From Diadema setosum (lineage: Eukaryota; Echinodermata; Echinoidea; Diadematoida; Diadematidae): DNA of 64,000 nt. Positions within the stretch are counted from its first letter, which is position 1; each line of letters starts with the position of its first letter. Location: assembly GCF_964275005.1 (NCBI RefSeq), contig NC_092685.1, positions 29,348,682 through 29,412,681 of the forward strand. Reading direction: 5' to 3'. Shown piece by piece: positions 1 through 63,930 of this stretch. The notes under the pieces were generated by a model, which saw only the letters and a program-made list of their open reading frames with translations, searched no databases and had not been told where the DNA came from. The translations under genes were made by a program, and so were the position numbers.

Positions 1-277
1 GCTCCTCTTCCCCCTCTTCCTCCTCCACCTCACCTCCCTCCTCTTCCTCCTCCCCCTCCTCCCCCTCCTCATCTCCTCCTCCTCATCTTCTTCCCTCCCA
101 CCTCCTCCTCCTCCCCTCCCCTCTCCCTCCTCCTCCTCCTCTTCCTCCTCCTCCCCTCTCCTCCCCTCTCCTTCCCCCCTCCTCCTCCTCCTCCTCCTCC
201 CCCCTCGCCTCTCCTCCTCCCCCTCCTCTTCCCCTCTCCTCCTTCCCCTCACCATCCTCCTTCTTCTCCTCCTCCTT
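1..277. repeat. Polypyrimidine (CT/TCC) tract
   Basis: About 277 bases almost purely C and T on the + strand, built of irregular TCC, CTC and CCCT runs. It lies in the XPO5 intron directly upstream of the first exon in the window and runs into its splice acceptor. Such long pyrimidine-purine tracts can form triplex DNA and are prone to length change. The Glu/Arg/Gly-rich reading frame on the other strand is a composition artefact. Confidence 0.9.
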
Positions 278-283
278 CATGAG

Positions 284-3200: not shown

Positions 3201-6200
3201 AGTACTTTACTTTTTTCTCTTTTTTTTTTCTGAGAGATGTGATCACATTTCAAGCAATGTTTTGACAAATTAGGTTTGTTTTAGAAGTCTCACCTTCATC
3301 TAACATTTGTGTGTTGTTGTTTTTTTAATTATCGTGATAATGAAAAGATCACAAAGTGCAAAATTAACTCATGAATGTTTGTCTGATCAACTGCCATTTG
3401 CAAAAATATCTGGACGTGAAAGTATCGGCGTATACAGTATTAGATATTTATTATTAAATAATATCTGAAAATGCATTGAGCTATGTCACAGAATTACTCT
3501 TTCTAAATACTGTGTACATGTATTGTGGGTTGATGCTAAACCATCAAGCCTAAAATTGTAGTATTGTGTCAAAAAATGGCAATGACTGCTACTGAAATCC
3601 AGTGCAAGGATTTCTGACAAAGACCCAAATTTTTTTTCTTCTGTATGAAATGCTTTTATAGTGCATGGAATATTGTATTCAAGCTTTATGCCCCAGGTTT
3701 TCAATGTTGCTTCTTCGATACAGGCACAATGAATGCATTCTGTAAATCTTTATTAAAGGCATGATTTACCATTTGCAGATGAAACAAAAACACAGCGTTA
3801 GTGCTTTAAAATAGTTCTAAAATGTGAGTTACGGATAGAATCAACCACTGTAAAAATTTGAATCCGTATAATCAATGTTATATGATAAAAATGTTTCCAG
3901 ACTAAACCATCTACAGTTACAGTTTATTGAGAAAAACACTGATATCTCCTTATATTTTAGGCTTTATTGCAAAAATCTTATATGGTAGGATGTTTTGTGA
4001 TACAACAGACCCACACATAAATATCAAATGTGATATCTTGAACATTTTTGAGATCACTGCTTCCAAAGGTAAACAAGCATATTTAGATAGGCATTGCTCA
4101 TATTATCATCATATTGCCGAGGAATTCTTTTGGAAGCATTCAAAGAGACCTGTAGATGATAGTTACATAAATTTAGTTAAGAGGCATTTCATCATATTTG
4201 GAAAGAAAAATGAACAGAGTGTACCTATTTTCTCATTTTTAGGCGTTTACAAACTGAACAAGATGTTCCTTGTGATCACTCATCCTGTTCTCTCTTTTTT
4301 GTGTATCTACAGATGTCACCTCTTTGCAGACTCCTTCCAGAGGCTTGGTTATGAGTTCTACGCCACGGAGGGTCTGTCAGATCAGCTCCTCGGCTCAATA
4401 TTTGCCAACCTTCATCATTTGCCAGACTACAGAATCAGACACATCATTCATATCCTTTCATCATGCACATATGATATGTTTAGTGTCTGCTTTTATGCAC
4501 CTTCCCAAGCTTGGATGATTATCAAATGTAGTAGCTGTTTTAAATATTTGTTTATAACACTGAAATACAAACATGTCCTGTGTTTTTGATTTTCTTGAGA
4601 CTGAAATGATTGTAACATTCAGTGGTATTCGAACTGTAAATGCTATTTCTATTTCCTGAAATTTGTCAAGGGTTTATCCCTATCACATCAGGTGCATTAT
4701 TTTACAATAGGAGTGTTTCAGAGGAGGGTGAAAGTGAATGCAATCCATGAAGTGTCATCCTGGTAGGACAAGTGATTTCCTTAACCCCCTTCCTCTCATC
4801 ATCCACGTGTGGTAGCCAAATCCCTGGTCCAGTTCTGCCCCAGCCAGTGCTGGCAGTCTGTCCTGGTCCCGGCCATGGCTGGCCTGAATGCGCACATGGT
4901 GAATCGCCTCAAACAACAGTGGGCTGCTGTCATACAGAAGAGGCAGAGCAGGTAGGGACACGCGTGCCAGATGATGTTGGGGGTAACATGGGAACTTTAG
5001 AGGAGGGGAGAGGGGTGCACTTGGTGACTCTTCAGGATTAAGGTCAGATGTCTGGTACCTGTAAATAAGATAGCAAGCACTACCAGAGCAGGACAAGTCT
5101 TGCAATATTTTCAAGGGAAAACCAGCAATTTCATTAATTATATCATGCCTGGAAAAGACAAATGCCTTTTGCAGTTATTGCAGTGAAAATTTTTTTGCCT
5201 GCATTGAGTGTATGTCTGTGTGTTACAAATCATGAAAATGGATTCTAGGAAAAAGAAAATTATGTGTTTTATCAAATCCATGGAAAGTAACAAGTTAGTA
5301 ATGTTTTTAAATTTGTGGCAGTGTAAAACATGAGTCCTTGCAATGCTTTTGAGAAACATTCATCAAAAGTGTAAACAATGAACCTTTATCAAGGAGAAAA
5401 ATTACTGTTCAAATGTGTCAATTCCAATTATAATAATAATAATTATTATTATTTTTTTTTTGGTAGTAACTTCACAAACATATATGAGATACAATGAGTG
5501 TCAAGAACTCTATGACTTCATACAACTATTCAAGCATGCTGGGTACTGGTCTTGAGTGTGTAGAAGAGCATAATTATGTACTACAATTTCCCAAGCATGA
5601 CATGATGATGAAACAGGGATGCGTCTTTAGTTCCACAGTGTTGGCAGAAAATTGAAGTCTGTAACCATCTCCTTCCAGTCATTCAATCTCTCATGATGCT
5701 TCTTCCTTCATCCTCTCTCCTTCCTTGCCCACGATGATGTCGTCCACCTGCTGGTCCGAGCAGCGAGGGGGACGAGCGGGAGGAGGAGCTTGAGGCGCAG
5801 GAGGTCCTCGAGGAGCACTTGACGAGAGCCGTCACCAGGGAACACATGGAGCTGATCGGTAAGACCCGGAGGGCCTTTATCAACCGACCTCAGAAAGATC
5901 AAGCTCGCCTTCATGAGTTTGTCTCGTTCAGACGTAGAAATCTCCATAGGTCAACCCCATGCAAGCAGCACTTGACTGTGTCTTTGCCAAATTTGAAACT
6001 TACATTCTGTACCAGCCTGGCTGCTTTACCAACTCCAACTGATGAAAATATTGTCCATTTACTGTCAATTATTCGATTATGAGATGTACTCGTTGACGTC
6101 AATTGAATTTTTTGTAATGGGTACTACACCTGAAAACCCCTTCCATGTGAGATTGAAATGTATCGATAGAGTATACACAAGCCGATGACGATGGAATTGG

Positions 6201-9200
6201 GAATGTGACTTTGTTTGTGAAACTGTTATAAAAGCCAATTTTCATGTGATAAAGTTGGATAAAGTGATGGCTATTACCTTCCGCTGACCTTAAAGTATTT
6301 TTCAAGTTTTTCATGAGACTAAAGTGTGCATAGATCAAGCATGCACTTGAACCTACAGGGTAAAGAGAATTGATGCTGGTAATTAGAAAGACACGACACA
6401 GATGACTGTTAATTATCTTGAGAATAAATAGGCTTTTCAGTATGGAAAATTGGGATTGTTGAATGTTGAATCTTTCCTGTATTTACTGTCTCCTTTTGAC
6501 CCGAAAGGCCTCCTGTGCTGGAAGAAGACACACGCATCTGCCGGAAGTGGTGGCGTTGCTACGGCGATAGAGGGAGGAGGAGGAGGCAGTGGTGAGGGGG
6601 GTGAGGATGACATGGAGATGGATGGGATGGACCAGGCAGAGGGTGAGCCAGGAGGAGCCCAGACTCCCAACAAGCCAGACATGGACAACATCAGTGATAT
6701 GGGCAAGGTCATGCTCCAACATGAGGTGAGTAAAGACTGCCATCTTTCACTTTGATCTTGAGGTAATTTGTTCCTTTCATGCGATTGCATTTTTTCTAAT
6801 GGGCCGAGTGCCCTGTGGTTTTATCAGCTCTTGATCGAGAGAAATATGTTGTCATCATAGACTATGTATTTAGAGCGTAATATCTTTGATAAGCATTCAT
6901 TGAGAAACTTGCAGAATCCTTTTTTAAACTGAAGTTCTTCTACATCACTGTGATGTAGGCAAAAGTGACATACAGTGCTCACAACATTTTACACACAGTA
7001 TCAAGTGAACATCCAAATCCATAAATACATTTCTGTATCACCTGCTGTAAGACAGTGTACCAGTCCTTCCTTCTGTTTTCGTTGACTGTTATTGTATGAT
7101 AGTCAACGCATAATTTGGTATAGTTTAAGCTATTGGGTTACTCCTGGTGAAATAAAAGTGTATGAATAAACACTTTGTTATCAATGCAGTAAAATTTCTC
7201 AACTCTCAATTGGATACTCTGATTAATTGGGTAAAATCTGCTCTCACTGACCCTGTGCCATATAACTAAGACATGGCTCGACACTAACTTTTTTGTTTGG
7301 TGGCCCGATGGGGCCCCCAAAATCCTAAATTTCAAATTTTTGGTGGCCCGAGAGAAAAATTTGGTGTCCCGAAAAAAACAATAAAAAACATTAAAAGTCC
7401 TTTTTTTTAATGAGTCAAATGTTTAAGTTTTATGATAGTAAGAATTAGAAGTTAGACATATCTTCTCATAAATAAACTTCAACAAACTTGCAACACTCAC
7501 TCTCAGGCACTCATTCAGTCCTTTTCATCCATCCTTTAAACAAATTTAACTGCTAATTTCCGGCGCAAAAAGTTGCGAATTTATTGACATACTTTTCAAA
7601 AAATTTTGGTGGCCCGAGGTGGGCCACCAAATTTGCCCTTTTTTGAAATTTGGTGACCCGACTTTCATTTTTGGTGGCCCCGGGCCACTGGGCCACCGTT
7701 AGTGTCGAGCCCTGACTAAGAGATATGTAGTTTGTATCGTTGCCCCCTTAGGCCATCACGATCAAATTATCTAATGAATGTAAATTGTCAGCATGCTGGA
7801 AAGATCTTCTTTGCAGGCTGTGTACACAGTTCAGCTATCATGGTGCTGAGATTGACAAATTGTGCTGAAATGGTAGTATCGTTGATTTCCCTTCTTTACA
7901 TATTTCCTTTGGTTTGTTTTCCTCTTCTTCTTCCAGAGACTGTGTGAGAGTCTAGTGATGTGTGTGTACTCTGCCATGTCTTGGCCGGACACTGGTGTGT
8001 GCATCAAGGCTTGTCGACTCTCATGGCTGGTGCTACAACAGGTTTGTGTGCATTCCATGATTACAATCCCTCTTCAGAACCGTATGAACACTAACTTCGT
8101 CAGTGTAGCATAGCATTAACACAATTTTGGCTCTCTTAGCTGGCATTATGTGGTCATTCAACACCGTACAAGTGAACTTCATGTGTGTAATGAAATGAGA
8201 TTGGCGTATGATGAGGCAGTTATCAAAATAATTATTTGATGTGCGTATGTATCAAAGCATTTATTTTGTGCCCAGCATGTTTGAATTTTGTAAAATGTAC
8301 TTTCAGACTTTGATATGATACACTCAGACAAACCTACAATTATCCATTGATGTGTACAACTTTCTTTTTGTATTGATTGCTTTTAACCCTATTCTCTAAC
8401 TGAGCTATTTGAGACCAAGTTTTTACTGGGGGGGGCGATTTGACCCCCCCTTCAGATCTCGGCCACCGATCGCGCGATCGCCGTGAAATTTTGCCTGAAG
8501 CTGGATGTCAACTACAAGATTACATGGTCATACAATAGAAAAATATTGCCTTTCTATTTTTAATAAATCAATTATGCAAATTTGTGCATGAAATCATATT
8601 TTCACCTATAACTCCATTAAAAAGACTGAAGTATTGCTAAATTTTTGTGTCAGAATTCCTCAAGACATATCAAACAATTTTCATGTAAAAAAATAGCACA
8701 ATCAAAATCAATTTCTATTGTTTTTTATTGTTTTGTAAATTTCTTATGTATTTTATTGTTTTTTCGACTTTTTTTTTCTATTGTTTTTTTGCCAAAATTT
8801 GTTGTAGGCACTTTTTCAGGCTTATCTACACTAGAATTGATTAATTTCAATGATTTAAAGTTGAAATAATCTAATTTATATCAATTTAACCAAAAAACAC
8901 AATTTGCATTCAATTTGCACACGATATCATGAATTTGAGCTGTTTTCGGGTTGACATGCATATGCATAACATTACGTAACTTCAGAACCGTGTACCCAGA
9001 CGTCGCAAATTTGGTCTGAAAATATGCGGAAGACTTCAATGAAAAAAGTCGTGAAACGATGCGGCAAAATCTTTGCGCATTGCGGAATCGTGGTGCGAAA
9101 CGTCGATGGGGGGGGGGGTTCAATTTGACCCCCCTCCAGTTAGAATAGGGTTAACTCAACTGCTTTGTGCTTCCACTTCATTTTTGGGCAATGCCAGATT

Positions 9201-12200
9201 GTAGTTTGATGCAGCCCACATAACCTGCACCCAGTAATAAACAAAACCCAACAAAACCACTCCCTGTAGTAAGGTTACCTAGTTGCCTGATTTTCTGATG
9301 TCGTGATTCAATGTATGTATGCAAATAAGTGGTTGTCATGCTGTGATGTTCAATGTTCAAATTGAGTACCGAGTGTGGTGTATGTTATTTTTCAGCTGGC
9401 ATTGCGCCCTCTATTGCCCGAGGCAGCAGCCTTCCTCTACACCTCCATCCTACAAGGGCTGCAAGTTCATGGGGAGCATGACACGTGTCTAGCAGAGCTT
9501 GTCCTCAGAGCTCTCCAGCACTATGAACTACTTGTGAGTCCTTGCATCATTTTTTCCTCTTTTTTTTGTTGAAAAACTCAGTTCTATGACAATTTTTGTT
9601 GTTGCTGTAACAGTTGCTATTGCTGTTGTTTCTGTTGTTGTGTGTTGTTTTTATACCCCTGCCAAACGAAGTTTGAAGGGGGTATATAGGAGTCAGCGGA
9701 CGGTCGGGCGGTCGGGCGGTCGGTCCGTTGCAAATCTTGCGTCGCGAACTACTTCCTCAGTTTTCAACCGATTCCCATAAAACTTGGCACAGATGTGTGC
9801 CTTGGGTTGTAGATGTGCAAGACGTATTTTTTTAGAGTACCCAAAAGTACGTTGCCATGGTAACGGCATATTATGGGCAAAAATGGGTACAAATCTTGCG
9901 TCGCGAACTCCTCCCCCAGTTTTTGATCAATTTTTATGAAATTAGGTACAGATGTTCATCTGACTATGTTAATGTGCAAGACACATATTTCCGCAGTGGC
10001 CAAAAGTGCGTTGCCATGGTAACGGCATGTTCTTGGTAAAATATAGGGCAAAATGCTTCATGGCAAAACTGCTTCATCAGTGTTCTTCCAATTCTCATGG
10101 AATTCATATTGAATGTTTGTCTTAGGATATAGGTCAGCATGACACATTTCTTGACAGTGACAAAAAGTATGTTGCCATGGTAACAGCTCACATATTATGA
10201 GCCAAAATGATGGAAAATTTTGTGTTGCAAACTACTTCCTCAGATTTTGCCCAATTTCCATGAAACTTGGTACAGATGTGTGCCTTTGGTTGTAGATGTG
10301 CAAGACGCATTTTTCGACAGTACCCGAAAGTACGTTGCCATGGTAACGGCATATTGATGGCAGAAGATCAAGGAAAGATCTTGCGGATTTAACTACTTCC
10401 TCAGTTTTTTGACCAAAGCTTATGAAATGTTGTTTTGACCAAAGCTTATGAAATGTTGTTTGGCGGGGGTATAACCAGTCGCTGTAGCGACATTTCTAGT
10501 TGTTTCTGACCTTCTGTATGTTGATTTAGTTCCCATTTGAAAATCTTGCTAAAAGGATCAAGCGTCGTAATATATCCCTGTGTGTCCAAACACATATGTG
10601 GGTGTGTGTGTTTGTTTGTTTGTAAGTGTGTAACTGTATATTTGTAATCTACTTGGTTCCTGTTGGTGAGAATGAAGAAACAAATGACACTGTGCATCGA
10701 TGCATTAAGTAGAAATTCCTCATACAATACTTAGTATGATTCCATATTTGATATGGACTCTCCTCATCCCAAATCATAAAATGATGTATGCCATTGAGCC
10801 CAAACTAAATTTTTTTTTTCGCTTTCTTTGTATTTTCAGTTACATCAGTCGAAATCCATTTCCTGTAAATCATTTTTATTAATTCAAAATTTCCATCATT
10901 GATTGCACAACTAGGATATAACATATCGTCGCTGGGGCTACAAGACCTCGCATCTGAAATTTTCATGAAAAGTACTTTTATGGATTAATGGTCAGATAAT
11001 CAGTTAAGTGATGTCCTGTCCAAATCCGAGCTGTCTTACCCCAAAAATGAAGCCACCCTGGCATGTCAAAGGAGAGGCTATCCCATTTGATATGGTGTTT
11101 TGGCTGCCATGTTTTTGTGCTCTCCTGAACATTTGACATTTTGTAGATACAAGGTCTTGTCGCCTCAGCGACGGTATGTATATCATAAAGACATGAAATC
11201 TTTATTATTCCTCTTTATTTTAGTGAGCATATATCAGCTTGCACATCAAGGAACTCTTAGAGATAGTTGGTCAGAGGGTCACATTCTGGGAATCCCCTTC
11301 CCCGTTGAACACTGTCCCATCCAATGTTTTGTTGGTTTGTGACAGCGTCTTTGTGAACCTCACCGGCCGTAGAGTAAGATTACACAGAGGTCCATAGTAC
11401 CGGTGGAGTGTTGGGACTGGTATGGTCTCTTTATACACACACTGGCTTCCAGACCCTCATACACTTGTCTAAATATAAAGAGCTGTATTTTTAATGAAAG
11501 CAGTCATTTTGAGGCAGCATATGGGTGAATTGTGCCTGAAATCACACAAGAGATTAAAACATGAAAACATTCATAAACATCAATATTTTACTTATGAATT
11601 GTAGTATGCAGCTGGCCAATTTATATCTTGGACACTTAACAAACATGTCTCTTTTGAACCTTTACTTGTTCCAGTTCCAGTTTCAAGAGAATACATTAGC
11701 TATGAAAAGGAACAATTGTGTTCATCAGATGTGGAAGAGAAATCAGCCTCATGAAAATAGCAAAGCTTGGATTTAGATTGCCTGTTTATATATGATTTCT
11801 GTCTTGTTTGCTTCTCACAATCAGAGAGAAAAGTATCCAGTGCTGACGGAGATGATGAAGAATCTCCCGGAGTGCAGCGAGCAAGCCATGCAGCAGTTCC
11901 ACCAGAGGGTGCTAGGCAACAAGGCCATGTCGGAGAAGAAGAAGAAGGACGCCTTCAAGAAGCTCCTCGTTGGAGTCATCGGGGTGAGATGCGGGCAAAC
12001 ATTACTCACAACTGCTGTATCGCATACTTGTCAAAAGTCTCATTTTTCACCTTAGCCTATTTTAATTCTTCACATGATGAGAACTAAACCAGAGAGTTGG
12101 GTTGAAAAAGGTCAGAGGGGGCGATACCACAAAGACTTTAATGTTTGAGTGTGTGAGTTTTGTATTCAGCAGCAAAACACTCCATTTGATGTTTCTCTAG

Positions 12201-23200: not shown

Positions 23201-26200
23201 GGGACAAACCAATTTGCTCCATGGAATCCATTCCAAATGGCACAGACAGAGGTTTATTGGGGTCCACAGACATGCTCTTCAAGCTGGAAAAATGCAACAA
23301 AGAGAACCAAGACATGACTAATACAGATGATGACTAACCCCAAAGATAAGCTCACAAAAGAATATCATTTACTCTGGCAAATAAAACATTTACTGAGGAA
23401 ACACATTGTTTTTAAATAGCATCAGATAATGATACATATAGTATCCATCCTGTCTAATCAAATGTAGTTGTAGTTTCAGACAGTGGTAGAAATCACTGAG
23501 CCAAACACTTTAATGAAAAAGTAGGATAGTTTCATATACAATAGTAAAAGGAGAGATAAACGTTGTCCACCAAAACATAGTTTGCCATCCTGTAGGCCTA
23601 AATCTTGCTTGGAAAATGACAACTATCAGACTGGGCCAATGCTACTTGTTCCTTATGGATAACCCAGAGAGATTGATGAGATGCCCTCCTTTGCAATGTT
23701 TGTTGTGTCGTTAAATTTATCCTCAGTGGCCATTATACTGTTATTTGTGTGTGCATGCTGCGCTGTACAGCAGGTTCAAGAGTGTAGCCAATAAGAGGTG
23801 CTAAAGTGATTCATATGTGCTCTTTTTATTTGATCATTATTATTAGTATTTTTGCTAATGCACAAGAGTGCATTATATAGTGTGCAGCAAAACAGCATAA
23901 CTGCACTGTGCATTTATCCTGTAGCAGAGTACCAATCACTCTATGTAGCTGTTTCAATAGCAAAATGTACTGTGCACGTGGCAAGAAACTTAACGATTGC
24001 TTTGATTTGCACGGATGTCTGAACAGGAAATTGAAGAGCGGCCCAATTGTATTGCGATTTAAAGTTTTACCAGGTGATATCATAGTACATAGACCCATTC
24101 ATAAAACAAATAATGCACAGATTTCAGCAGTGAGCAGGCAAATTACTGGAGTTTGGATGACTTTTACTCTACTCCTCTCACCTCAGAGTTGTTCCAAATG
24201 CTAGATGGCTGACCAGATTCTTTGTCCTTGACATGAGATTGTCTGTCTTGTTGCTGCAAAACTAGATCATGCAAATAAAGCTGCAATCAGGACCAGAATA
24301 AAAACTGCCAAGAAATAGTCAAGTTATTTAGTGATATTTTGACACTACATAGTGTTAAGTGGTGGGATGACTTTATCCTGCAATTACTGTTTAGGTGAGA
24401 TTCTTCTTGCATTGTTACATTGTCCTATGCCATATTAGGGTTTAGGGTCTAGGTAATCTTTCTCCCTTTTTTTTTTTTTTGGGGGGGGGGTCATTAATGT
24501 GATGTTCTATGAGAATATTGAACATTTATTCAATTCATTCCTCTTCATATTTCTTAACTGAAAACTCATTTCACTATGTGCAATATTTTGATATTCTACA
24601 AACTCAATAAACTGACTTCATGCCTGACCATTCACATTAATCAATATCACATCAAAAGCATAATACATAATGTAACTTCGAATGGTAGTGCATGCTCGGA
24701 AAATACTATTCTGTTAAAATAACGCTCGATGGCAACTCTTCTACAGGACAAATAATATCAAACTCTTCTTCAACACAAATGGAAAATGTTACCTGCAAAG
24801 CTGCTCCATAATTATGTGCGATGAATCTCAGAGTTTTAGCAATGACCTTCCTCTTTTCTGGATCAAAGTCCTTGCAAAAGATACAGATAAAGAGAGAACC
24901 ACATTTTAGACCAGACGGATTGATCATCCATTAGTCTGCAAAGTCTTATTCCAGGTCACGGTGTCCAGTTTAGTTTGACATTTTGAATTGTCTGTATGCA
25001 AGTAAAGTTTACTGATGTTAAACTGCAAAAATATACGGCTTGTCATTGCATCAAGGATACCTAGTGTAAGATAACAGTTCTAGCAATATAAAAACTCAAT
25101 GTACTTAAAGGTCTTGTTAACCTTTGGGAACAGTGATTTAAAAATCTTTCAAGATATGACATTTAATGTGTATGTGTAGGTCTGTTGTACCACAAAACAT
25201 CCTATCATATAAAATGTTCGCGATAAAGCCTAAAATATAAGGAGATATCTGTATTGTTTACATTTTGTATATTTAAAACTACTTAACATTGATTTTACCA
25301 ATTCAAATTCTTACAGTGGTTGTTTCTATCCATAACTCACATTTTAGACCTATTGTACAGCACTAATGCTGGGTTTTTGTTTCATCTGCAAATGGTAAAT
25401 TATGCCTTTAAACTGTGACTGAGAAATGCTGATCTGTGATCCAGTGATGCATTAGTTAAATCCTGAAGAAAACGGTACCATGCACTTTAGAACTGCAGAT
25501 GACAAACTCACTCTTTAATGGTATATTCAAAAGTGACACTTTAACACCCCAAAAGTTACAATGACAAATGTATCATGTTTATCAACTAGAAAATTTGGTT
25601 CTTATCTGGTAAATGATATACCTGTATTTAATCATTTGATGACAATCAGGATCAAAGTTTGGGAAGAGTTCATTTATGATCCCTTCTACCCAAAAATGCA
25701 TGGATGCAAAAGTAAAAGAAGAGCATTTTTATTAGACTACAACAGGGGATATATCTTCAAGATCTTACCTGATAGACATCATACTTTGAGCCAATAATGA
25801 CCAACGGGAGTGGGAATGGATCGATCATGTCTCTGTCCTACAAAATGAGAATGTAATGGAACAAGGAAGTCAACATGAGGGCTTGTATTGGACATCATTT
25901 TTACCAAGAAAAATCTGTTAAGACATACAGTAAAGCATAAATCAGTTGCTAATTTGCACATTGAATAGCAGCAGTTTTAATTGTATCAGAGTCTACCTTT
26001 TGAAAACTAACACCTACTTTGAGATGCTATTGTAAAATTTGCAAATAATTTTGCGACATAATACTGCTCCTCCACTGAAGTGACTACATCACATCAATGT
26101 GCCAATGTTTCACTTCAAAACGTTTTGCCTAAATCTATTGGAAGGCATAGTCTCATGTAACATTATTTACCGCTACAAGTGTATATAAATATAATTATAT

Positions 26201-34762: not shown

Positions 34763-35538
34763 TAGGGTAACATCCCCAGTATTCGGTCACTTAAGCTTTT
34801 TTGCAATATTTTTCAAACTAAAATAATACATACATACATCATATCTACAGTACTGTATGTGAAATATATCAAATTTCTTTAATCTCAACTTTCATTTCGT
34901 TAAATATCTCACAGAATTGCACAAAATCGCGAAATATTTCACCTTGAAAATTCCCCAGTATACGGTCATCGGCTCCAGTATTCGGTCACGCGATGTGCGC
35001 GTTCAAAGTCAATGCGTGTTCAAGGCAGCTGAAAAACGCGCGCGCGCGCTACCTTGTTGGCGCAAAATTGCATCGGGGAAGTTGCGGCGACCGTTGGTGA
35101 CCGAATACTGGGGCCTCGGCACTTGCATTCAACCCTTGTACATTGGGACACTGTATCGGCAGGTACGGACATTTTGTTTTTCTTTTGCGTTTTTGAGGAT
35201 ACCATTACACTCCAAGCTTGCGATAAGCGAAAAATCCGGCGAGAGAACGGCTTATTTCTCGATTTTTAGCGCTTTTTCGGCGACCCGTACTCTTAAAACT
35301 GGGCCTTATCCGCGCGCGCTTTTGGAAAGTAGCGCCGATTCTGCACTTTTGACGGTAAAATTTGGGATTTTGGATGGATTTTTGGAGGGGGCTAAGGGAG
35401 TTTCCTGTTGTGAATGAGTGTGCAAGTATGTGAATTAGTGTGATTTGCGTGTGTTGTGACAGTTGAACTTACTGGCTGGTGACTAGTAATAAGTGACCGA
35501 ATACCGGTGCCTGACCGAATACTGGTGCCCTTACCCTA
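34763..35538. mobile_element. MITE with TAGGGTAA termini and repeated CCAGTATTCGGTCA motif
   Basis: Ends TAGGGTAACATCCCCAGTAT and ACTGGTGCCCTTACCCTA are inverted. The motif CCAGTATTCGGTCA or its complement recurs about six times, including in the middle. The interior is CpG-rich and includes a 166-codon open frame that resembles no protein I recognise and crosses the motif copies; I treat it as chance. Confidence 0.75.
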
Positions 35539-35655
35539 TTTCCTTTAAAAAACAAAACAAAAGAAACTCAGGATTTCGAAACTATAGGGTCTTTCTAGAG
35601 TATCTAGACTACAACTATTAAAGCCAATGCAAAGGAACATGAACATCATACATAC

Positions 35656-36286
35656 AGAGGTGCAGCCGCGACAGCGGCTGCACCTCTATTCCTTCACAGA
35701 CGTTGTCATTTTTCAGTGTGGTTGTGCGACTCCTTCATGAATATCTTTATTAATCGTGGAAAACTAAAATACAAGGAATTATCGTAATCTATGATAATCA
35801 TTCAATAATCGGTATGCGATTTTTTGTTTAATTATGTCAAAAACTCACCGAAATCTGTGGCTGAAATCAGGTCTGTAAACGTCCTTATTGCTTCACTCCT
35901 CATCTGCGTGTTATTTGAATGGCATTCACTCTCGTATCGAACGTACAACATAGGTAGTCGGAGAGCTAGAGGGCGCCTCTCCGACTACCTACGTTGTACG
36001 TTGTAGTATACAAGAGTGAATGCCATTCAAATAACACGCAGATGAGGAGTGAAGCAATAAGGACGTTTACAGACCTGATTTCAGCCACAGATTTCGGTGA
36101 GTTTTTGACGTAATTAAACAAAAAATCGCATACCGATTATTGAATGATATTACGATAATTCCTTGTATTTTAGTTTTCCACAATTAATAAAGATATTCAT
36201 GAAGGAGTCGCACAACCACACTGAAAAATGACAATGTCTGCGAAGGAATAGAGGTGCAGCCGCTGTCGCTTCGCGACAGCGGCTGC
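35656..36286. repeat. Near-perfect ~630-bp palindrome (foldback element)
   Basis: Two arms of about 310 bp are inverted copies of each other with very few mismatches, meeting near 35970 (around GAGGGCGCCTC). The outer ends carry nested hairpins built on GCAGCCGC / GCGGCTGC. No open frame of note. High arm identity implies recent origin or arm-to-arm gene conversion. Each arm includes TTTCGGTGAGTTTT, which mimics a splice donor. Confidence 0.9.
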
Positions 36287-36756
36287 GTGTAGCTACGGTA
36301 ATTTACAGTGACAGCTAACTTATATTTGACAACAATCTACCGTTCATTTTGGCCCTGGAGGCCTGGGGCATACTCGTGATAATATAGGTCCCATCCTTTA
36401 TTAAATTCATGGGACGGGAGCTTATTTCCCTCCACCTGTACGTTACTTAGATATAAGACTCTATTTTATACTCATGAATTCCGCCCCACAGCATGCACAG
36501 TGTGTGTGGCTTTCAATGGTCCATAGATCAGTTCGGGAAACCCACTCACAAGGGGGGCCCCTCCTTATAAGTAACCCGTCCCCCTTATAAGTAACCCCGT
36601 CCCCCTTATAAGTAACCCCCGGGGCACCCCTTATAAGGAGTCTCCACGCTTTTTTGCAATGCAACGCGAAAATGAAAGGACTGCGGCAATTCGCTTGATT
36701 ATGTCCATAAAGCTTCACAAGTTTCCTAGTTACTCACGAAATTTGAGCAAAATCGG

Positions 36757-37076
36757 TTCGAGGCATCATATCTAAAATTATGGATTTAAATGCGATGTCA
36801 AACGACCCATGCGAATGCTGAAATGCGAGCGATTACTGGCGGCGGCGGCGGCGGCGGCACGGCAATGCTTGAGTGCAGACGTGGCGACCGAGTACGTAGA
36901 CTTTCGTTCATTCAGGTAGCCTACCTGAATGAACGAAAGTCTACGTACTCAGTCGCCACGTCTGCACTCAAGCATTGCCGCGCCGCCGCGCCTGGCGACA
37001 CTCACGCCAGTCAGCATTCGCATGGGTCGTTTGACATCGCATTTAAATCCATGATTTTAGATATGATGCCTCGAAC
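36757..37076. repeat. ~320-bp palindrome nested in the left arm
   Basis: Perfect or near-perfect palindrome from GTTCGAGGCATCATATC to its complement, centred near 36920 on GGTAGCCTACC. One arm has a (GGC)n run, the other a shorter counterpart. The matching point in the right arm (near 41970) lacks it, so it was inserted after the large arms formed. Confidence 0.85.
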
Positions 37077-37084
37077 GGTTCTAG

Positions 37085-38200
37085 GAACAGTACCCCCTGG
37101 GCAACCACCCTCCGGATAACTACCACCCGGATAATTACCCCCCAGGAAAATTCCCCCCTAGGGCAACTACCCCCCGGACAGCTACCCTCCAAGGGCAATT
37201 ACCCTCCAGGGTAATTACCCCCTAGGACAACTACCCCCCCGGACAACTACCCTCCTAGGGCAATCACCCCCCAGGGCTATTTCCCCTTAGGAAAACTACC
37301 CCCTGGATAACAACCCCTCGGATAACTACCCCTGGATAACTACCCCCTCGGATAACTACCCCCTGGATAACTACCCCCCGGAGAACTACCCCCTGGGTAA
37401 CTACCCCTCGGAGAACTACCCTCTGGATAACTACCCCCCGGAGTACTACCCCCTGGGTAACTACCCCCCGGAGAACTACCCCCTGGATAACTACCCCCCG
37501 GATAACTACCCCCCGGATAACTACCCCCCGGATAGCTACCCCCCGGATAATTACCCCCCGGATAATTACCCTCCGGATAATTACCCCCCAGATGATTACC
37601 ACCAGTATAATTATCCCCAGGTTAAAGGTCCAATTTACCTTTGGGAGCAGTGATTTCAAAAATGTTCAAGATATCACATTTGATTCATATGTGTAGGTCT
37701 GTTGTATCATAAAACATCCTACCATATAAAATTTTTGCAATAAAGCCTAACATATAAGGAGATATCAGTGTTTTTCTCAATAAACCGTAACTGTATACGC
37801 TTTAGTCTGGAAACATTTTTATTATAACTATTGTTTATATTTTGTGTATTTAACAACACTTGACATCGATTACACGGATTCAAATTTTTACAGTGGTTGT
37901 TTCTATCCCTAAATCACATTTTAGAACTATTTTAAAGCACTAATGCTGGGTTTTTGTTTCATATGCAAAAGGTAAATTGTGCCTTTAACTACCCCTTCCT
38001 CCGATAACTAGACCCCATATAACTTCCACCCGATAACTACCCCCTCCGATAACTTCCAGTGGATGATTACCCCGGATAAGTAGGCCTATAACTCCCCCTC
38101 CCCTATATAACTATCAAAAGGAAAATTACCCCCAGGACAGTGCACCAATCAATTACCCCCTGGATAACTACCTCCCGGGTCATTGCCCCCCCCCCCCCAA
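37085..38200. repeat. 15-bp minisatellite, left arm
   Basis: Tandem variants of CTACCCCCCGGATAA, most regular at 37320-37600 and degenerate at both ends. Interrupted by a MITE at 37622-37988. More degenerate relatives occur at 40385-40530. The Val/Ile-Arg-Gly frames it produces are repeat artefacts. Confidence 0.9.
37622..37988 (+). mobile_element. TTAA-flanked MITE, 3-copy family, copy B
   Basis: Most complete copy: TTAAAGGTCCAATTTACC at the left and GGTAAATTGTGCCTTTAA at the right, about 20-bp inverted ends with TTAA on both edges. Inserted in the middle of the 15-bp minisatellite, so it is younger than that array. Confidence 0.9.
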
Positions 38201-38845
38201 CTTTTACTTTTAATAAAAAGAATATTATTACTACAGGAAACGAAGTTCTTTGTATCATTTTGCCAGGAATCACGGAGATGCCATACTGATACTTCATCTT
38301 ATGAAAACAACATCTTAAGGATTTACGATATGTATCGTTTGCATTTAGGACGATTTATGTACAAGCTTAATTCCTCCCTTCTGTATTTTGACTCTATGTT
38401 CATCAAAAACGAAACTGTCCCTGCATATCCTACCCGGTAATCCAGTAAATGTCAATGCCTTTAACCAAAACTATTTTCGCTAAATCTGTATTTTCTTTTA
38501 CTGTTCCGAAATTTCGGATTTCTCTTGATAGTAGTATAAAAGAAGTTTTAAGTTTGAATGCCTTTACCATTGAACTAAAGACATTTTGAAGAAATGTTAC
38601 ACTTCACTTTTAGCATTTTTTTAAACCACAATCGTCTATCGTTTACCACAACTCCATGTAACACTTCTTTATTTTGAGGAGCTTATATCTCATACCTCAC
38701 GTGCCCTGGTTTTGACCCATCATCTTCCTCTTCCCTCTCGCTTTTCTCTGTCCATGTACCGTGAAGGTAGTCTATTCCTGTCATTCATTACTCACCTTTC
38801 CTCTTTCTCTCATTACAAGGGATTTATCTCGTGTGTGTTCATGTG

Positions 38846-40232
38846 CAGTGCACTCCCGTTAGGACGAAATGCCCAGGACCGACAATTGTTTGTTTGTTTG
38901 TTTGTTTGTTTTTCGTTTTAGCGAAATATCGTTATAATAATATGCAATGTATAACGAAAAGAAGGAAACCACGCATAAAAATAAATTTCTGTTTGTTGAA
39001 TCCTCATCATACGCTGGAAAGCTATGTGAAATGGGAGAGTACCTTTTTAATTTCGCTTAAATATTACATTTTAAAAAGAGCATAAAGTTGTTTGTGTTGT
39101 CACACATGTGTAGAAAATGACGGTGTAGGATTTGGTTACAGTTCGATATTCCAAAGGTTATTTTTTTTTTTTTTTTTTTTTTTTTACTTAACTACGTTAC
39201 TCCGAAGGCTCCTTATTCCGAAGTTTTGCCATTCCCGGGATTCCGATGGTTTGTTTATCTGAAGGTTCGCATTTCCGAAGAATCATTATTCCGAAAGTTC
39301 ATAATTTAAGTTAAAATAATATATTGTTCATTTTCCGAAGGTTCGTTGATCTGAAAATGAAATGAGGTTCGTCATTCTGAAGGTTAACTATAAATAAAAA
39401 AAAAAATAAAAAAAATGAGAAAGGTTCACTATTCAGAAAGTTCGTTGTTCCGAAGGCTTTTTCATCCGAAATGAAATAAGGTTCGTTATTCCGAAGAAAG
39501 TTTGTTAATGAAAAAAAAAAATAGACAGGTTAGTTATTTCGAAGATTTATTTATCTTAAGACGATTATAAGGATTGCAATTCTTAAGTTTTGTTAGTGTA
39601 CTCACCTTTTTCCACCATGGATTAACGATTCTTTTTGTAATGTTCCGATTAACGAACGTTTTGAATTCCTATCATTTTCGGACTAACGAACCGTATAAGA
39701 ATAAGAATAAGAACCATATTTTATCATGGGATTAACGAACCTTTGGAATAACGCCAAAATGTGCTTAATATTTCATTTCCGAACTATTACGGACATTTAG
39801 TTGTATCAAAATCTGTGTGTTTTGTATCAAAGGACTTCGGAACAATGAAACAAACCTTATCTGAATTCAGATTATTGTATTACAATAACGCAAGTTCCCC
39901 TCGGAAACTGTGCGTGAAGGATACACGGAGTGAACATACAATGATGTGAAGCGTTCGCTCATGCATGCAGAGACGCTATAAAAATGCTTGTTCCGCTACG
40001 CATTTTCGAATGCGATCCGCATTTCGTTGTAAAGGAGCACATTTCTTTTGTTTTTCTTTGTCAGTGGCGCTCAGAAAAGACTGCGTGGTAACGAAAATTT
40101 GGTTATAACCGTCTTCGTTATAAGCGAATTTTGTACCATAGACTTTAATGGCGATAATTTTGGGACCAGAAGTTTTGCTTCGTTATAACGAAATTTCGTT
40201 ATAACCGTGTTCGTTGTAACGGGAGTTCACTG
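38846..40232. mobile_element. pogo/Tigger-like non-autonomous element
   Basis: Left end CAGTGCACTCCCGTTAGGAC, right end TGTAACGGGAGTTCACTG. Just inside the right end are several CGTTATAACGAA motifs and a TTTAATGGCGATAATTTTGGG segment shared with the remnant at 21103. No transposase. The interior is enlarged by the repeat at 39130-39765. Confidence 0.65.
39130..39765. repeat. Repeat of ATTCCGAAGGTTCGTT motifs, copy 1
   Basis: Dozens of variants of TTATTCCGAAGGTTCG, in one orientation on the left half and inverted (TTCGGAATAACGAACC-like) on the right, with poly-T and poly-A runs. Copy 2 is at 44460-44735. It appears inserted into the pogo-like element. Confidence 0.7.
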
Positions 40233-40555
40233 TATCTTTATTTGTGTACTTCGTCTCTGTCTTAATTTGCTTTCTTTGCATTGTTTCATCAATTTTGTAA
40301 CTATTTTACTGTTATACCGTTAACGCTCATTTCAGAATTGCCCTACTGCATCATTGGGCATTAACAATTACTAGTACTTATCAAGGATGTGGGAAGAGAT
40401 TGTCACCTCCTTGGTATGATCACCGCGGAGCATTACCTCCCTTGACAATTACTCCTTATTAAAATTAGGCTCCAACCAATCACCCCTCTTACAGTAACTC
40501 TCCCCCAGAAAATTACGTCTCTCATTTTTATTTTCGAACAACGTTTGCTATTTGA

Positions 40556-40850
40556 ATTGGGAAAAAAAACAACATTTTTTCATATCGTCTGGTTTTAGTC
40601 GAGACCTAACTTCAGGTTTTAAACATCTTTTGGGTGAGATAATTAGAAACCCCTTACAAAATATTAAAGAGCATGTTATTCAAAGAAGGTTTCAAATTTT
40701 TGTGAAAAAAAAACTCTTGAAATGGCCGGGATAAAACAGAGCAGCCCTATAATGCAAAAAGGATTCTGTCAACTATGTTACAACTCTCTATAGATCTATT
40801 CAAAAAGAGGGTGCAGGACAAAAGACTTCGTTAACAACTAGGGGTGTTTT
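40556..40850. repeat. Fragment related to the MITE at 22337-22729
   Basis: Shares AGAGCATGT, AAGAAGGTTTCAA and AAATGGCCGGGATA with the inverted complement of that element. No intact ends. Confidence 0.45.
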
Positions 40851-41011
40851 GTAAAAAAAAAAATACCGTTAAACTCGTAATATTTTACTCTTTCTAATCA
40901 GACTAACTTATATTTGAACTTGATTTCAGTGTCGAGAACATTTAATTTGAAAACTAGCACAATTCTACTTGTATGTAAAACAAGCTGTAATTTTACTCTT
41001 ATGACAGATTA

Positions 41012-41211
41012 GGGCACCGTTTGATAAAAGTTGCCAGTTATGACATCTTGTTAATCTCTAATAATTTCAATAAAACCATGGGTTCTGCTTGATTGATAAG
41101 CTCAAGTCACTGACTTGTTACCATGGACCTGCTTTGATCGACCTACAACAATTGGTAATTGTGTGGAACCGACAGCTTATCAGGACTGATAACTTTTATA
41201 AAACCGTGCCC
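41012..41211. mobile_element. MITE with GGGCACSGTTT termini
   Basis: Left GGGCACCGTTTGATAAAAGT, right ACTTTTATAAAACCGTGCCC, exactly 200 bp. Non-coding, in the loop of the large foldback structure. Confidence 0.75.
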
Positions 41212-41454
41212 GGATCCTATCAGAAATTATGGCTTTAATCGAAGGGTCCCTCGCTAATGTTAAGGGAATATGAATTGCAATGCAATCAACTCTCCTTTTC
41301 TTATGTTTATCGTCTAATGTGTTATAACGGTAGAAAATGACAAGCCAAAAGAGTAAATGATGACAGTGCAAGAGAAAGGTGCATCTTCTGATATGGTGTT
41401 ATGAACTTATGGAAAAATTACAACGGGTGGTAACTTTCGGGGGCGGGGTTCGGG

Positions 41455-41955
41455 GTATGGTTAAGGGGGGGGGGGTAGTAATCTGGGTGGTATTTATCCT
41501 GGGGGTAGTTATCCGGGGAGTAATTATCCGGGTGGTAGTTATCCGGGGGGTAGTTATCCGGGGGGTAGTTATCCGGGGGGTAGTTATCCAGGGGGTAGTT
41601 ATCCGGGGGGTAGTTATCCAGGGGGTAGTTATCCGGGGGGTAGTTATCCAGGGGGTAGCTATCCGGGTGGTAGTTATCTGGGGGGTAGTTATCCGGGGGG
41701 TAGTCATCCAGGGGGTAGTTACCAAGGGGGTAATTATCTGGGGGGTAGATGTCCTAGGGGTAATTGCCATTGGGGGTAGTTGCCCTAGGAGGGTAGATGA
41801 CCGGGTGGTAGTTGTCCTAGTCTAGGGGGTAATGGCCCTGGAGGGTGATTGCCCTAGGAGGGTAGTTGTCCGGGGGGTAGTTGCCCTAAGGGGGAATAGA
41901 CCTGGTGGGTAATTATCCGGGTGGTAGTTATCCGGAGGGTGGTTGCCCAGGGGGT
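41455..41955. repeat. 15-bp minisatellite, right arm
   Basis: Inverted counterpart of 37085-38200: tandem variants of TTATCCGGGGGGTAG. The order of diverged units near the outer end matches the left arm, which shows the two arrays are copies of one ancestor rather than independent expansions. Confidence 0.9.
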
Positions 41956-42336
41956 AAGTGCCCGGATACGGCCTCGAACCGATTTTGCTCAAATTTCGTG
42001 AGTAACTAGGAAACTTGTGAAGCTTTATGGACATAATCAAGCGAATTGCCGCAGTCCTTTCATATTCGTGTTGCATTGCAAAAAAGCGTGGAGACTCCTT
42101 ATAAGGGGTGCCCCGGGGGTAACTATACACAGCCCAGTCGCTGTACATGGTACGTCGCGACAGGGCTGTACGCGCGCGACCACCAATCACTAGGAGAGGC
42201 GACGTAATCGTACACGATAGCTTTGACTTTTGATACTTACGATCATTTTTGTCACCTCAAACTCATCGAGTATACTCTTCAATATTTACTCTACATCTGA
42301 TGCTATATATATTCAAATGTACGTAATGAAACTTAC

Positions 42337-42390
42337 CGAAATTGATCATCATATCCAGCATGTTCACACCGTACACAATCTTTCACGCCA
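42337..42390 (-). other. DYNC2LI1: Possible 5' exon of DYNC2LI1
   Basis: On the - strand, sequence ending ATCAATTTCG is followed by a strong donor GTAAGTTT (donor GT at 42336-42335). It contains ATG CTG GAT ATG ATG. Joined directly to 33452 it runs out of the dynein frame, so it would have to be a non-coding leader, or an unseen small exon lies between. The 5' limit is unknown. Confidence 0.3.
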
Positions 42391-42600
42391 GGCCAAGCTC
42401 AGATATCGGGTGGTCACGTGATGTGAATGCCCTTTCAAGCAGCGTACGCACGGTTACTAGTATAAGGTATACAGCTATAAACTGTACTGGGTTATTGTGT
42501 CGCAGACGCCAAGGTTTGTTCGACACTTTCAACGCACACGCGCTCGCTCTGGAGCACATCCGGTCACGCATGCGCATAAGTCAAGGCGCCATTTTGAATC
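42380..42600. promoter_or_regulatory. Putative bidirectional promoter, DYNC2LI1 / CLHC1
   Basis: CpG-rich island in an AT-rich window. E-box CACGTG at 42415-42420, NRF1-like GCATGCGCA at 42568-42576, and YY1-like GCGCCATTTT at 42586-42595, which in many animal genes marks a start site. A donor facing left (42336) and one facing right (42725) bracket it. Neither gene has another plausible promoter in the gap. Motif calls are by eye. Confidence 0.5.
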
Positions 42601-42724
42601 CTGCAACAACGAAGCCCGGCGGTCAGGAATTGCGCCAGAAAGTGTCATTTATTTGTTCCACGGACTTATCGCAAGTGGTCTCCATGGACCCAGTGTGGCG
42701 AACTATTCTTCTGTAGCATTTAAC
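42600..42724 (+). other. CLHC1: Possible non-coding first exon of CLHC1
   Basis: Follows the YY1-like motif and ends GCATTTAAC|GTGAGTAAAG, a strong donor. It contains a 10-codon upstream open frame (ATG at 42683). Splicing to the acceptor at 45655 (TTGACAG) or 45677 (ATCACAG) would place the CLHC1 start codon in the second exon. The exact 5' end is unknown. Confidence 0.4.
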
Positions 42725-42985
42725 GTGAGTAAAGTATTCTGTTTAAAGGAGAAAAGTATACATGTTCCTAAGTTTTGTAGTTGTGTTGAGGTTCCTCACT
42801 TCGAGGCTGCATGCCGTGCGTGTCAGACGCTGTTTTCGCATAGCGTAACAGTGTCTGGTCGGGCTACCCCGGGGGTTACTTATAAGGGGGACGGGGTTAC
42901 TTATAAGGGGGACGGGTTACTTATAAGGAGGGGCCCCCCTTGTGAGTGGGTTTCCCGAACTGAGATAGAACACAGTGCATGTGCG

Positions 42986-44320
42986 GCTTTCAGACCCTGG
43001 GCCGCCGGCGCCCTACCCTAGCTAGTTATACTAGAAGTTCTATAGGGAGCCTACTCGTGAGTGCTTGCAACAACCCGAGTCACGTCACAGAAATACCATT
43101 AATTGCTACAATAGCAAATTAAATATGCTATTCGATCATACATGAACAAAGAATTAACACAAATTTACCCTTTAGGCATGACTCCTTTCTCTTCCCTTGG
43201 CACAGGTCAACAGATCACAACCAGGTTTCTATCAAGAATTCAGATTTGTTGACGGTCGTCAAGAAAAATGTGTTGTTGAATATATGCGGGTTATTTTCAT
43301 TGATGCAGCAGAGTCTTGCCCTACTTATTTAAAGATCTGTAAAGTTTTGGCAAGTTCTTTTTTTCTAAATTTGTAAATATAAGTGTAATTTCAGGTACAA
43401 AGACATAACACTCGAAAAATATAAAATAAAGTACTTTATTTATAACAAATGATTCTAAATGATTGAAATATCACTACTAATTAGAAAATCAGATTCAAAT
43501 TGGCAACTATTGAAACATACACATCGTTACTAGTTTACAATTTTTGCAACTAAGCAGACGTACATTCCTCGAGGGATTGCGTCTTCGTTCGTGGGATTGC
43601 GCCCACAAACAGAGAAATTTTGGTCTTTGCTTTTGATTACAGGTATGCATTGTCACGTTGTCATTTTGGTGTGAAAAAGTTTTATGATTAGCTCCTTTTG
43701 ATACGCTTCTAAATCTTGTATCTATGTTAGAGACGGAGATGACGGGCATCATCATCAAAATGTAGTCCCAGTCGTTGAATTTTGTGTAGGCTCCTATATG
43801 TTTACGTTTACGTTTGTGAATGTTAGGGTCTACATCTACGCGCGGAATAATTCGTTGCAGTACCAGCGTGCGAGCGTCGAGCGTGCAGTCTGCTGCAGCA
43901 GCTTTGGGCTTAAACAGCATTTTCGACTCGGCAAACAGGTGCTTTTAAACTGGCAAACCTGAGCTTACTTGTGGTCAGTTATGGAAGACGGGGGAGGGCC
44001 AAGGCAGGGGGGTTCTCTTTCAAAAATAATGATAATGTGGCATAAATTAATATGTAACGTAGGCCCTCTAAAACTCTAGCTAGTTGGATCTACGAGTTAC
44101 TACGACTCATCGACCACTTTTTGATTAATTAGATCTGAATACATTTCCTTTGATTAAATACCTCAGATTAAATGCCATATTGTCTAACAAATATAAATTT
44201 ACATCTTAGAAAATACAGTTGGCACGTACCGTACACGCAGAACTCTCGGCGATAAATGCAAACTGGCGTTCACTGGTGCAAGCTGGTCATGGTTTAAATC
44301 GAATTAAGTTTAATTATTAA
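42986..44320. other. Intron-like sequence without recognised features
   Basis: Between the foldback structure and the next repeats, in the presumed first intron of CLHC1. A 137-codon open frame at 43507-43920 on the - strand matches no family I recognise, lacks splice or promoter support, and is probably chance. Confidence 0.5.
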
Positions 44321-44459
44321 CCCATATCGGGCCATCTACGGGATATTCCGTAGTTCGTCCGAACGCCGCGGGGGGCACATACGGAATATCCCATAGTGAA
44401 TAAAATGGCATATGAATGACGTCATTCACTTCCGCTGAGTACTATGACTGTACGGGTGC

Positions 44460-44735
44460 TGTTCGTTATTCCGAAGGTTCGATATTCCGAAGGTTCTTTG
44501 TTCCGAAGTTAATCCGAAACACACAAATTCCCTATACCTAGAGGTTTGTTAATCCGAAAATGAAAAAGGGTTCGTTAATCTGAACATTTGTGGCATTATT
44601 CCAAAGGTTCATCATTCCGAAGATTTGTTAATCCGAAAATGAAATTCGGAAAAACAAATCTTCGGAATAATGAATCTTCGGACTGAAGAGCCTTCGGAAT
44701 AACGAACCTTTGGAATAACGAGCTGTAACCGACTG
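44460..44735. repeat. Repeat of ATTCCGAAGGTTCGTT motifs, copy 2
   Basis: Same motif and same inverted layout as 39130-39765: GTTCGTTATTCCGAAGGTTC at the left and CTTCGGAATAACGAACC at the right. More compact and better preserved than copy 1. Confidence 0.75.
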
Positions 44736-45014
44736 TACTATGCATTAAATGGCAGCATGTTATATACAATATTAAAGAGATTTTTTTCCTCTTCCAAATG
44801 ATATATAACTCGTTTATGTTTTTTTCATTGCTTGCTAATGAAGAGCGATTGTTTGGAGAGTTGTCTGTTTGTCGGAGTGTGTGGTAGTGCGCGAATGGTG
44901 CTGGGCCTCTTGGGTGTTTGTCTATACAGGTGCGTTGGCCCGATATGGGTTGAAAGCACATAAATTGAGTGAATGGGCAAATACGTGTTATTCTGTTAAC
45001 AATATTAAATTGTG

Positions 45015-62814: not shown

Positions 62815-63930
62815 TTACGCGGTCCGTAATATATGTCCCCGCCGGAAGTAGCATTTTGTAGCAAAATGTGCAATATAGGTAAAAAATCAAGGTCAAAGGT
62901 CAAAGAAGTCAGAGGTCAAAATTCTGTGTAAAAGTTTTGAAGCCCTCACCTAGTGCCATCACATAAAGCAAACGGAATCGAAATCGGGTTAGAAATGGCG
63001 AAGGAGTAGCATTTTGTAGCTAATGTACAATACAGGTCAAAAATCAGGGTTAAAGGTCAAAGAAAGTAAAGGTCAAAATTCTGTGTAAAGTTTTGAAGCC
63101 CTCACCTAGTGCCATCACATAAAGCAAACGGAATCGAAATCGGGTTAGAAATGGCGAAGGAGTAGCATTTTGTAGCCAATGTACAATACAGGTCAAAAAT
63201 CAAGGTCAAAGGTCAAAGAAGGCAAAGGTCAAAATTCTGTGTAGAAGTTTTGAAGCCCTCACCTAGTGCCATCACATAAAGCAAACGGAATCGAAATCGG
63301 GTTAGAAATGGCGAAGGAGTAGCATTTTGTAGCAAAATGTACAATATAGGTCAAAAATCAAGGTCAAAGGTCAAAGAAGGCAAAGGTCAAAATTCTGTGT
63401 AGCAGTTTTGAAGCCCTCACCTAGTGCCATCACATAAAGCAAACGGAATCGAAATCGGGTTAGAAATGGCGAAGGAGTAGCATTTTGTAGCAAAACGTAA
63501 AATATAGGTCAAAAATCAAGTTCAAAGGTCAAAATTCTGCGTAGAAGTTTTGAAGCCCTCACCTAGTGCCATCACATAAAGCAAACGGAATCGAAATCGG
63601 GTTAGAAATGGCGAAGGAGTAGCATTTTGTAGCAAAATGTACAATATAGGTCAAAAATCAAGGTCAAAGGTCAAAGAAGTCAAAGGTCAAAATTCTGTGT
63701 AGAAGTTTTGAAGCCCTTACCTAGTGCCATCACATAAAGCAAACGGAATCGAAATCGGGTTAGAAATGGCGAAGGAGTAGCATTTTGTAGCAAACTGTAC
63801 AATATAGGTCAAAGGTCAAGGTCAAAGGTCACAACTGAAATTCTGTGTAGAAGTTTCAAAGCTCCCATGTAGTGCTATCATATAAAGCAAACAGAATCAA
63901 AATTGGCTCATAAATGACAGAGAAGTAGCA
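62815..63930. repeat. ~157-bp tandem satellite with DR1-like motifs
   Basis: Seven units with GTGCCATCACATAAAGCAAA recurring every 142-158 bp (about 62952, 63108, 63266, 63423, 63566, 63723, with a diverged last one near 63871). Most units hold AGGTCAAAGGTCA and more AGGTCA half-sites. Units are highly alike, so the array is young or homogenised. It lies in an intron of, or upstream of, the unrecognised gene and continues to the window edge. Confidence 0.92.

Follow-up and report, generated by a model that had tools for sequence, protein, structure and literature searches.

A probable modular foldback-type element with arms of short tandem units in the sea urchin Diadema setosum

Introduction

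The DNA analysed here, hereafter the window, is a 64,000-nucleotide stretch of the Diadema setosum genome (assembly GCF_964275005.1, contig NC_092685.1, positions 29,348,682 to 29,412,681 of the forward strand). It contains a 6436-bp inverted two-armed structure at window positions 36528-42963, whose arms include arrays of 15-bp units. Is this structure a mobile element or a local rearrangement, and what do its arms record of its history? We propose that it is probably a non-autonomous foldback-type cut-and-paste DNA transposon, old and now immobile because other repeats are present in each of its arms and in its loop.

Results

Architecture of the inverted structure

The region 36000-43600 was read directly and searched for repeats. 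From outside to inside, each arm consists of a 97-bp end module, a ~150-bp block and a 15-bp-unit array, and the two arms are mirrored round a 3.2-kb loop (Table 1). The top inverted match within 36400-43100 scores 581 bits, compared with a mean of 29 and a maximum of 37.4 in 50 dinucleotide shuffles. A preliminary description of this DNA had claimed three modules in the same order, inverted on both sides of a loop of ~3 kb, and had proposed a self-comparison as a check on their inverted collinearity. Such a comparison displays mirrored outer ends, blocks and arrays, and the modular inverted structure is thereby confirmed.

The inverted match ends at TCAG on the left and CTGA on the right. All 97 aligned columns of the outer ends agree; extending the run to 36625/42866 gives 97 of 98, and the mismatch falls on the base that closes the right-arm insert as placed. 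The blocks differ at 36666 and 36671 and at a third position that lies within four insert bases. The arrays are less alike: 37091-37574 and 41956-41470 agree at 87% over 490 columns, and the overall array identity is 87-90% with gaps.

The order of diverged unit variants is shared by the two arrays, as the preliminary description had stated. Aligned with each other, the left array, of 35 units, and the right array, of 32, score 643, and 500 shuffles of the right units reach a mean of 343 (standard deviation 30) and a maximum of 443. A single array, copied in inverted orientation, most likely gave rise to both arms, because the diverged variants keep their order, which independent expansion would not produce.

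Identity falls from the outside of the arms to the inside. The outer 290 aligned columns hold 4 differences and no gaps, one of the four being an insert base and another (37141) standing at the border, whereas the inner 458 hold 60 differences (Fisher p about 9e-10, with the 290/458 border picked after inspection of the data). A further 39 columns of the inner part are gaps, and no fewer than 9 of these lie at its ragged inner end. This contrast suggests, most simply, that the ends were homogenised by gene conversion. In addition, the tip unit and the array unit resemble each other to a degree equalled in 22 of 1000 shuffles.

Flanks and possible target duplication

The left flank of the structure reads TCCATAGA and the right flank GATAGAAC. 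ATAGA occurs on both flanks with a one-base offset, AGAT and ATAG match exactly as 4-mers, and CATAGA/GATAGA stand in register with one mismatch. These pairs come from a scan of end positions 36516-36544 (29 positions), offsets from -1 to +1 (3) and lengths from 3 to 11 (9). A short target duplication of 4-6 bp with an ATAGA core is plausible from this text. No duplication length was chosen, because several short candidates share the one ATAGA core.

The opposite flanks also share a direct similarity, CACAGTG..TGTG.GGCTTTCA, at 36496-36515 and 42971-42992. An equally good match of CACAGTG..GGCTTTCA was found in 0 of 500 mononucleotide shuffles and in 1 of 366 control segments of the window.

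Table 1. Features of the inverted structure and of the inserts in its arms (window positions)
Feature	Positions	Strand	Description
Left flank CATAGA	36522-36527		Possible target duplication; exact register with right flank, one mismatch
Left outer end	36528-36624	+	Begins TCAGTTCGGGAAACCC; three 21-bp units with TTATAAGTAAC; Tandem Repeats Finder (TRF) period 21, 2.8 copies; inverted match to 42867-42963
Left block	36611-36764	+	Overlaps inner edge of left outer end; inverted match to 41971-42124, 151/154
Insert, left arm	36762-37070 (309 bp)	+	Palindromic, like a miniature inverted-repeat transposable element (MITE); ends GGCATCATATC...GATATGATGCC; TCGA each side; boundaries tentative
Left 15-bp array, main part	37091-37621	+	Unit TACCCCCCGGATAAC; TRF 34.5 copies; inverted match and shared unit order with right array
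Insert, left array	37626-37984 (359 bp)	+	Nested repeat at TTAA (37622-37625 and 37985-37988); 15-bp array text on both sides
Left 15-bp array, inner decayed continuation	37989-38192	+	Cyclic profile score 82.1 over 37998-38191; BLAST of 37998-38191 to both arrays ~64-86%
Loop	38193-41423		Holds decayed 16-bp-unit remnant (about 39134-39850) and possible array trace (40421-40516)
Right 15-bp array	41424-41966	-	TRF 41470-41748 and 41742-41892; unit is complement of TACCCCCCGGATAAC; inverted match to left array
Right block	41971-42124	-	Inverted match to 36611-36764 (98%); its final four bases, 42121-42124, lie in the insert
Insert, right arm	42121-42866 (746 bp)		Between two copies of CCCCGGGGGT (42111-42120 and 42867-42876)
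Right outer end	42867-42963	-	Three TTATAAGTAAC units; identical, inverted, to left outer end
Right flank GATAGA	42964-42969		Possible target duplication

Nested insertions in the arms and the loop

The structure had been described as broken up by nested insertions, and three inserts in the arms bear this out; two of them can be read as an interrupted target. In the right arm, the decamer CCCCGGGGGT borders the 746-bp insert on both sides; it is single in the left arm, at the corresponding place, and occurs nowhere else in the window. No inverted repeat of at least 11 bp was found to join the two ends of this insert. The 359-bp insert of the left array has relatives at 25105-25411 (+) and 3753-4073 (-), which makes three copies in the window, 81-88% alike. 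All three carry CCTTTAA at one end, and two of the three start with TTAAAGG, which the 3753-4073 copy does not show.

The third arm segment, 36762-37070, was possibly inserted at TCGA. Its self-inverted match (36756-37076) is 87.5% over 329 columns, and the right arm lacks such a segment at the corresponding place. This insertion is less certain than the other two, because its own arms extend into bases that it shares with the block and because the two arms of the element do not have the same sequence on its inner side. Before the three arm insertions, the element would have been at most about 5 kb long, compared with 6436 bp now.

The two highest-scoring array-like traces in the loop are at 40421-40455 (score 21.8) and 40495-40516 (score 19.4). 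Twelve mononucleotide shuffles score up to 20.6, and a 12-kb control stretch (1-12000) gives one match, at 19.1; the traces are only suggestive of array remains.

Coding content and searches for relatives

Stop-to-stop reading frames within the loop do not exceed 104 codons. Four loop frames and two frames from the right-arm insert were submitted to Pfam, and none of these six fragments had a match at E 0.1, a THAP transposase included; a non-autonomous copy would be without one. Rfam at the gathering score and ARAGORN returned nothing in the window. Exact short patterns from the tip, the array and the block had no match in viral contigs, and the exact array pattern had none in prokaryote genomes. 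G-quadruplex motifs with loops of up to 7 are absent from the arms; both arrays do contain matches once loops may reach 9 or 12. On first inspection the right-arm insert gave the impression of a promoter and a splice donor, on which no claim is based.

Neighbouring repeats and exon-like pieces

A small foldback of 277 bp (44454-44730; 44446-44738 with its flanking repeats) lies to the right of the element. Its arms consist of 16-bp units GTTCGTTATTCCGAAG, and perfect 8-bp direct repeats GACTGTAC stand at its flanks. This octamer occurs five times on the + strand and twice on the - strand of the window, and it could flank the foldback by chance. The repeat in the loop of the main element (39134 to about 39850) is a decayed relative of this neighbour and has the same 16-bp units, and its left end GGTTACAG resembles the neighbour's right end. 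About 260 bp to the left of the main element, a palindromic MITE-like repeat (35668-36269) is 92% self-inverted over 613 columns. A tandem array at 62847-63903 has units of ~158 bp rich in AAGGTCAAAGGTCA.

Elsewhere in the window, an exon-like piece at 51945-52295 matches the Clathrin_H_link domain (E 1.7e-11), and another at 5738-6079 matches Exportin-5 weakly (E 0.006, below the cut-off). Two further frames were compared with Pfam: one has a weak viral-envelope match below the cut-off, and one has no match. Together with its repeats, these results suggest that the window is animal-like DNA.

Discussion

To which kind of element does this structure belong? The preliminary description likened its layout to the sea-urchin TU and Drosophila FB elements. 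The likeness holds for foldback arms with short tandem units, which are 15 bp long in TU, and it is structural only. TU carries its 15-bp tandem domain outermost and has 8-bp targets, whereas here the array is innermost, behind the 97-bp end and the ~150-bp block, and an 8-bp duplication is not clear. The small foldback at 44446-44738, with short tandem units at its extreme ends and an 8-bp target, looks nearer to the TU layout than the main element does. The main element has the long terminal inverted repeats of the foldback group and short tandem units in modular arms. In the hAT superfamily, CAG...CTG ends are accompanied by an 8-bp target duplication; the ends here are TCAG...CTGA, and 5 of 8 bases match in the 8-bp flank pair that corresponds to CAG...CTG ends.

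Foldback-type elements arose in several superfamilies. Galileo of Drosophila is placed in the P superfamily (PMC3573991), and Tm1 of root-knot nematodes is described as a Mutator-like foldback that is linked to Mutator/Phantom via a predicted transposase (PMC3169594). The statement in the preliminary description that the movers of foldback elements are poorly known thus holds only in part, since these two are tied to transposases, although no transposase was found for Tetris of Drosophila virilis (PMC4079207). Tetris resembles the present element in its long modular arms, which run from an outer flanking domain through a tandem domain to an inner part, in being non-autonomous and in the relatedness of its tandem unit to the flanking domain, its array and flanking domain having a similar 37-bp stretch in common (PMC4079207). 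It differs in its unit of ~220 bp, compared with 15 bp here, in its target duplications of 8-10 bp, in its three structurally complete copies and in its insect host (PMC4079207). Tm1 likewise has composite arms, in which outer and inner motifs, distinct from each other, enclose tandem units of 13-15 bp, and its copies are mostly without a transposase; its asymmetric 7-bp tips, its mostly 9-bp target duplications and a known copy with a putative transposase set it apart (PMC3169594). Galileo, which has chimeras and THAP sites within its repeats, shares long, internally repeated arms and non-autonomous two-arm copies, and differs in its 7-bp target duplications, its ~210-bp repeat region in the F subfamily and a transposase known from some copies (PMC3688188, PMC3573991). 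The element described here combines the Tetris order, from flanking part to tandem part, with units as short as those of Tm1. It looks like an addition to the known foldback kind rather than a new kind.

The flanks do not single out one of these superfamilies. Mutator elements have target duplications of 8-10 bp, mostly 9 bp, and the best 8-bp and 9-bp pairs at the ends have three mismatches here; an 8-bp pair with two mismatches falls within the ends themselves and is a product of their inverted sequence. The best 7-bp pairs, the length expected for the P superfamily of Galileo, have two mismatches. Since the target duplication is equivocal, no superfamily is assigned.

How might such an element have been built and moved? 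A foldback transposon moved in trans, with arrays that multiply binding sites, is proposed because the order of modules is like that of Tetris, the short units are like those of Tm1, and the tip and array units resemble each other. The element would have moved as one unit, with ends that carry the sequence needed by a mover supplied in trans from elsewhere. The 15-bp arrays, and perhaps also the 21-bp tip units, would most likely have been multiple transposase-binding sites that grew by slippage. By analogy with Galileo, in which the tandem repeats of the long arms have additional identified THAP-domain sites (PMC3688188), the arrays plausibly act as transposase-site multipliers. The arms would derive from a single inverted duplication, and the outermost ~290 bp would have been homogenised later, probably by gene conversion between the arms or with another copy. 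Other repeats would also have inserted into both arms and the loop. The transposon reading is supported by the mirrored three-module arms, by the shared order of unit variants and at the termini, where the outer ends are identical up to TCAG/CTGA and the ATAGA core lies just outside both, as a short target duplication would. The short loop frames, the six fragments without a Pfam match, the contrast in identity between outer and inner columns and the nested insertions with readable targets point the same way.

Several points weigh against the foldback transposon. Exact flank matches reach only 4-5 bp; at 6 bp there is one mismatch, and at 7, 8 and 9 bp at the ends there are two, three and three. 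The duplication length is equivocal: it matches no superfamily's typical one cleanly, and a short match could arise by chance given the size of the scan. Part of the drop in identity could reflect a quicker decay of the tandem arrays through slippage and would then need no gene conversion, and the insert base and the border position among the four outer differences bear on the same contrast. No mover gene was recognised in the six fragments tested from the loop and the right-arm insert, and a permissive BLAST of 35401-43600 found no second copy of the ends or the block in the 64-kb window. Finally, the Galileo paper describes binding to tandem repeats as untested where Foldback and Phantom elements are concerned (PMC3688188).

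The main rival explanation is a chimeric or rearranged element, in which arms from two copies of the same family were joined by ectopic recombination or inversion and the flanks are consequently mismatched. It takes this place because Galileo chimeras have non-matching flanks, 12 chimeric copies with non-matching 7-bp flanks being described (PMC3573991). The present flanks, without a perfect duplication beyond 5 bp, and the arrays, less identical than the outer ends, would fit such an origin. However, unit variants follow the same order in the two arrays and the outer ends show no difference, and a chimera of diverged copies should differ there too. CATAGA/GATAGA also stand in exact register; agreement at five of six bases has a chance of ~0.5% per single trial, but combinations of 29 positions, 3 offsets and 9 lengths were tried. 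On balance we consider a chimera unlikely.

The unclear target duplication, the lack of another copy within the window and the short direct similarity between the flanks (CACAGTG..GGCTTTCA) would suit an ordinary local inverted duplication, produced for instance when a replication fork switched template, that was never mobile and included the minisatellite by accident. Against such an event stand the ends, which are modular and transposon-like and have repeated tip units, and the 3.2-kb spacer between the arms; other foldback- or MITE-like elements also lie nearby, one of them with a perfect 8-bp flanking direct repeat; we therefore judge it rather improbable. Long palindromes and minisatellites are prone to assembly error, so a false inverted join also has to be considered. 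Many array positions are not the same in the two arms, whose nested inserts are different as well, so that neither arm is a plain copy of the other made in assembly, and an assembly artefact is very improbable. We thus retain the foldback transposon as the probable reading. There is a small chance that the transposase that moved its foldback family comes from a superfamily so far unlinked to foldbacks and makes a short, 4-6 bp target duplication, that the array arose from the tip repeat to multiply binding sites, and that gene conversion holds the ends identical while the rest decays.

What does this element mean for the biology of foldbacks? It is a layered foldback with a readable history of tip repeats, block, array and later insertions, and its ends are far more alike than the array behind them. 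The element alone alters no general view. If copies and a mover were found, it would allow a test of tandem arms as transposase-site multipliers outside Drosophila, and of whether long inverted ends stay alike by conversion.

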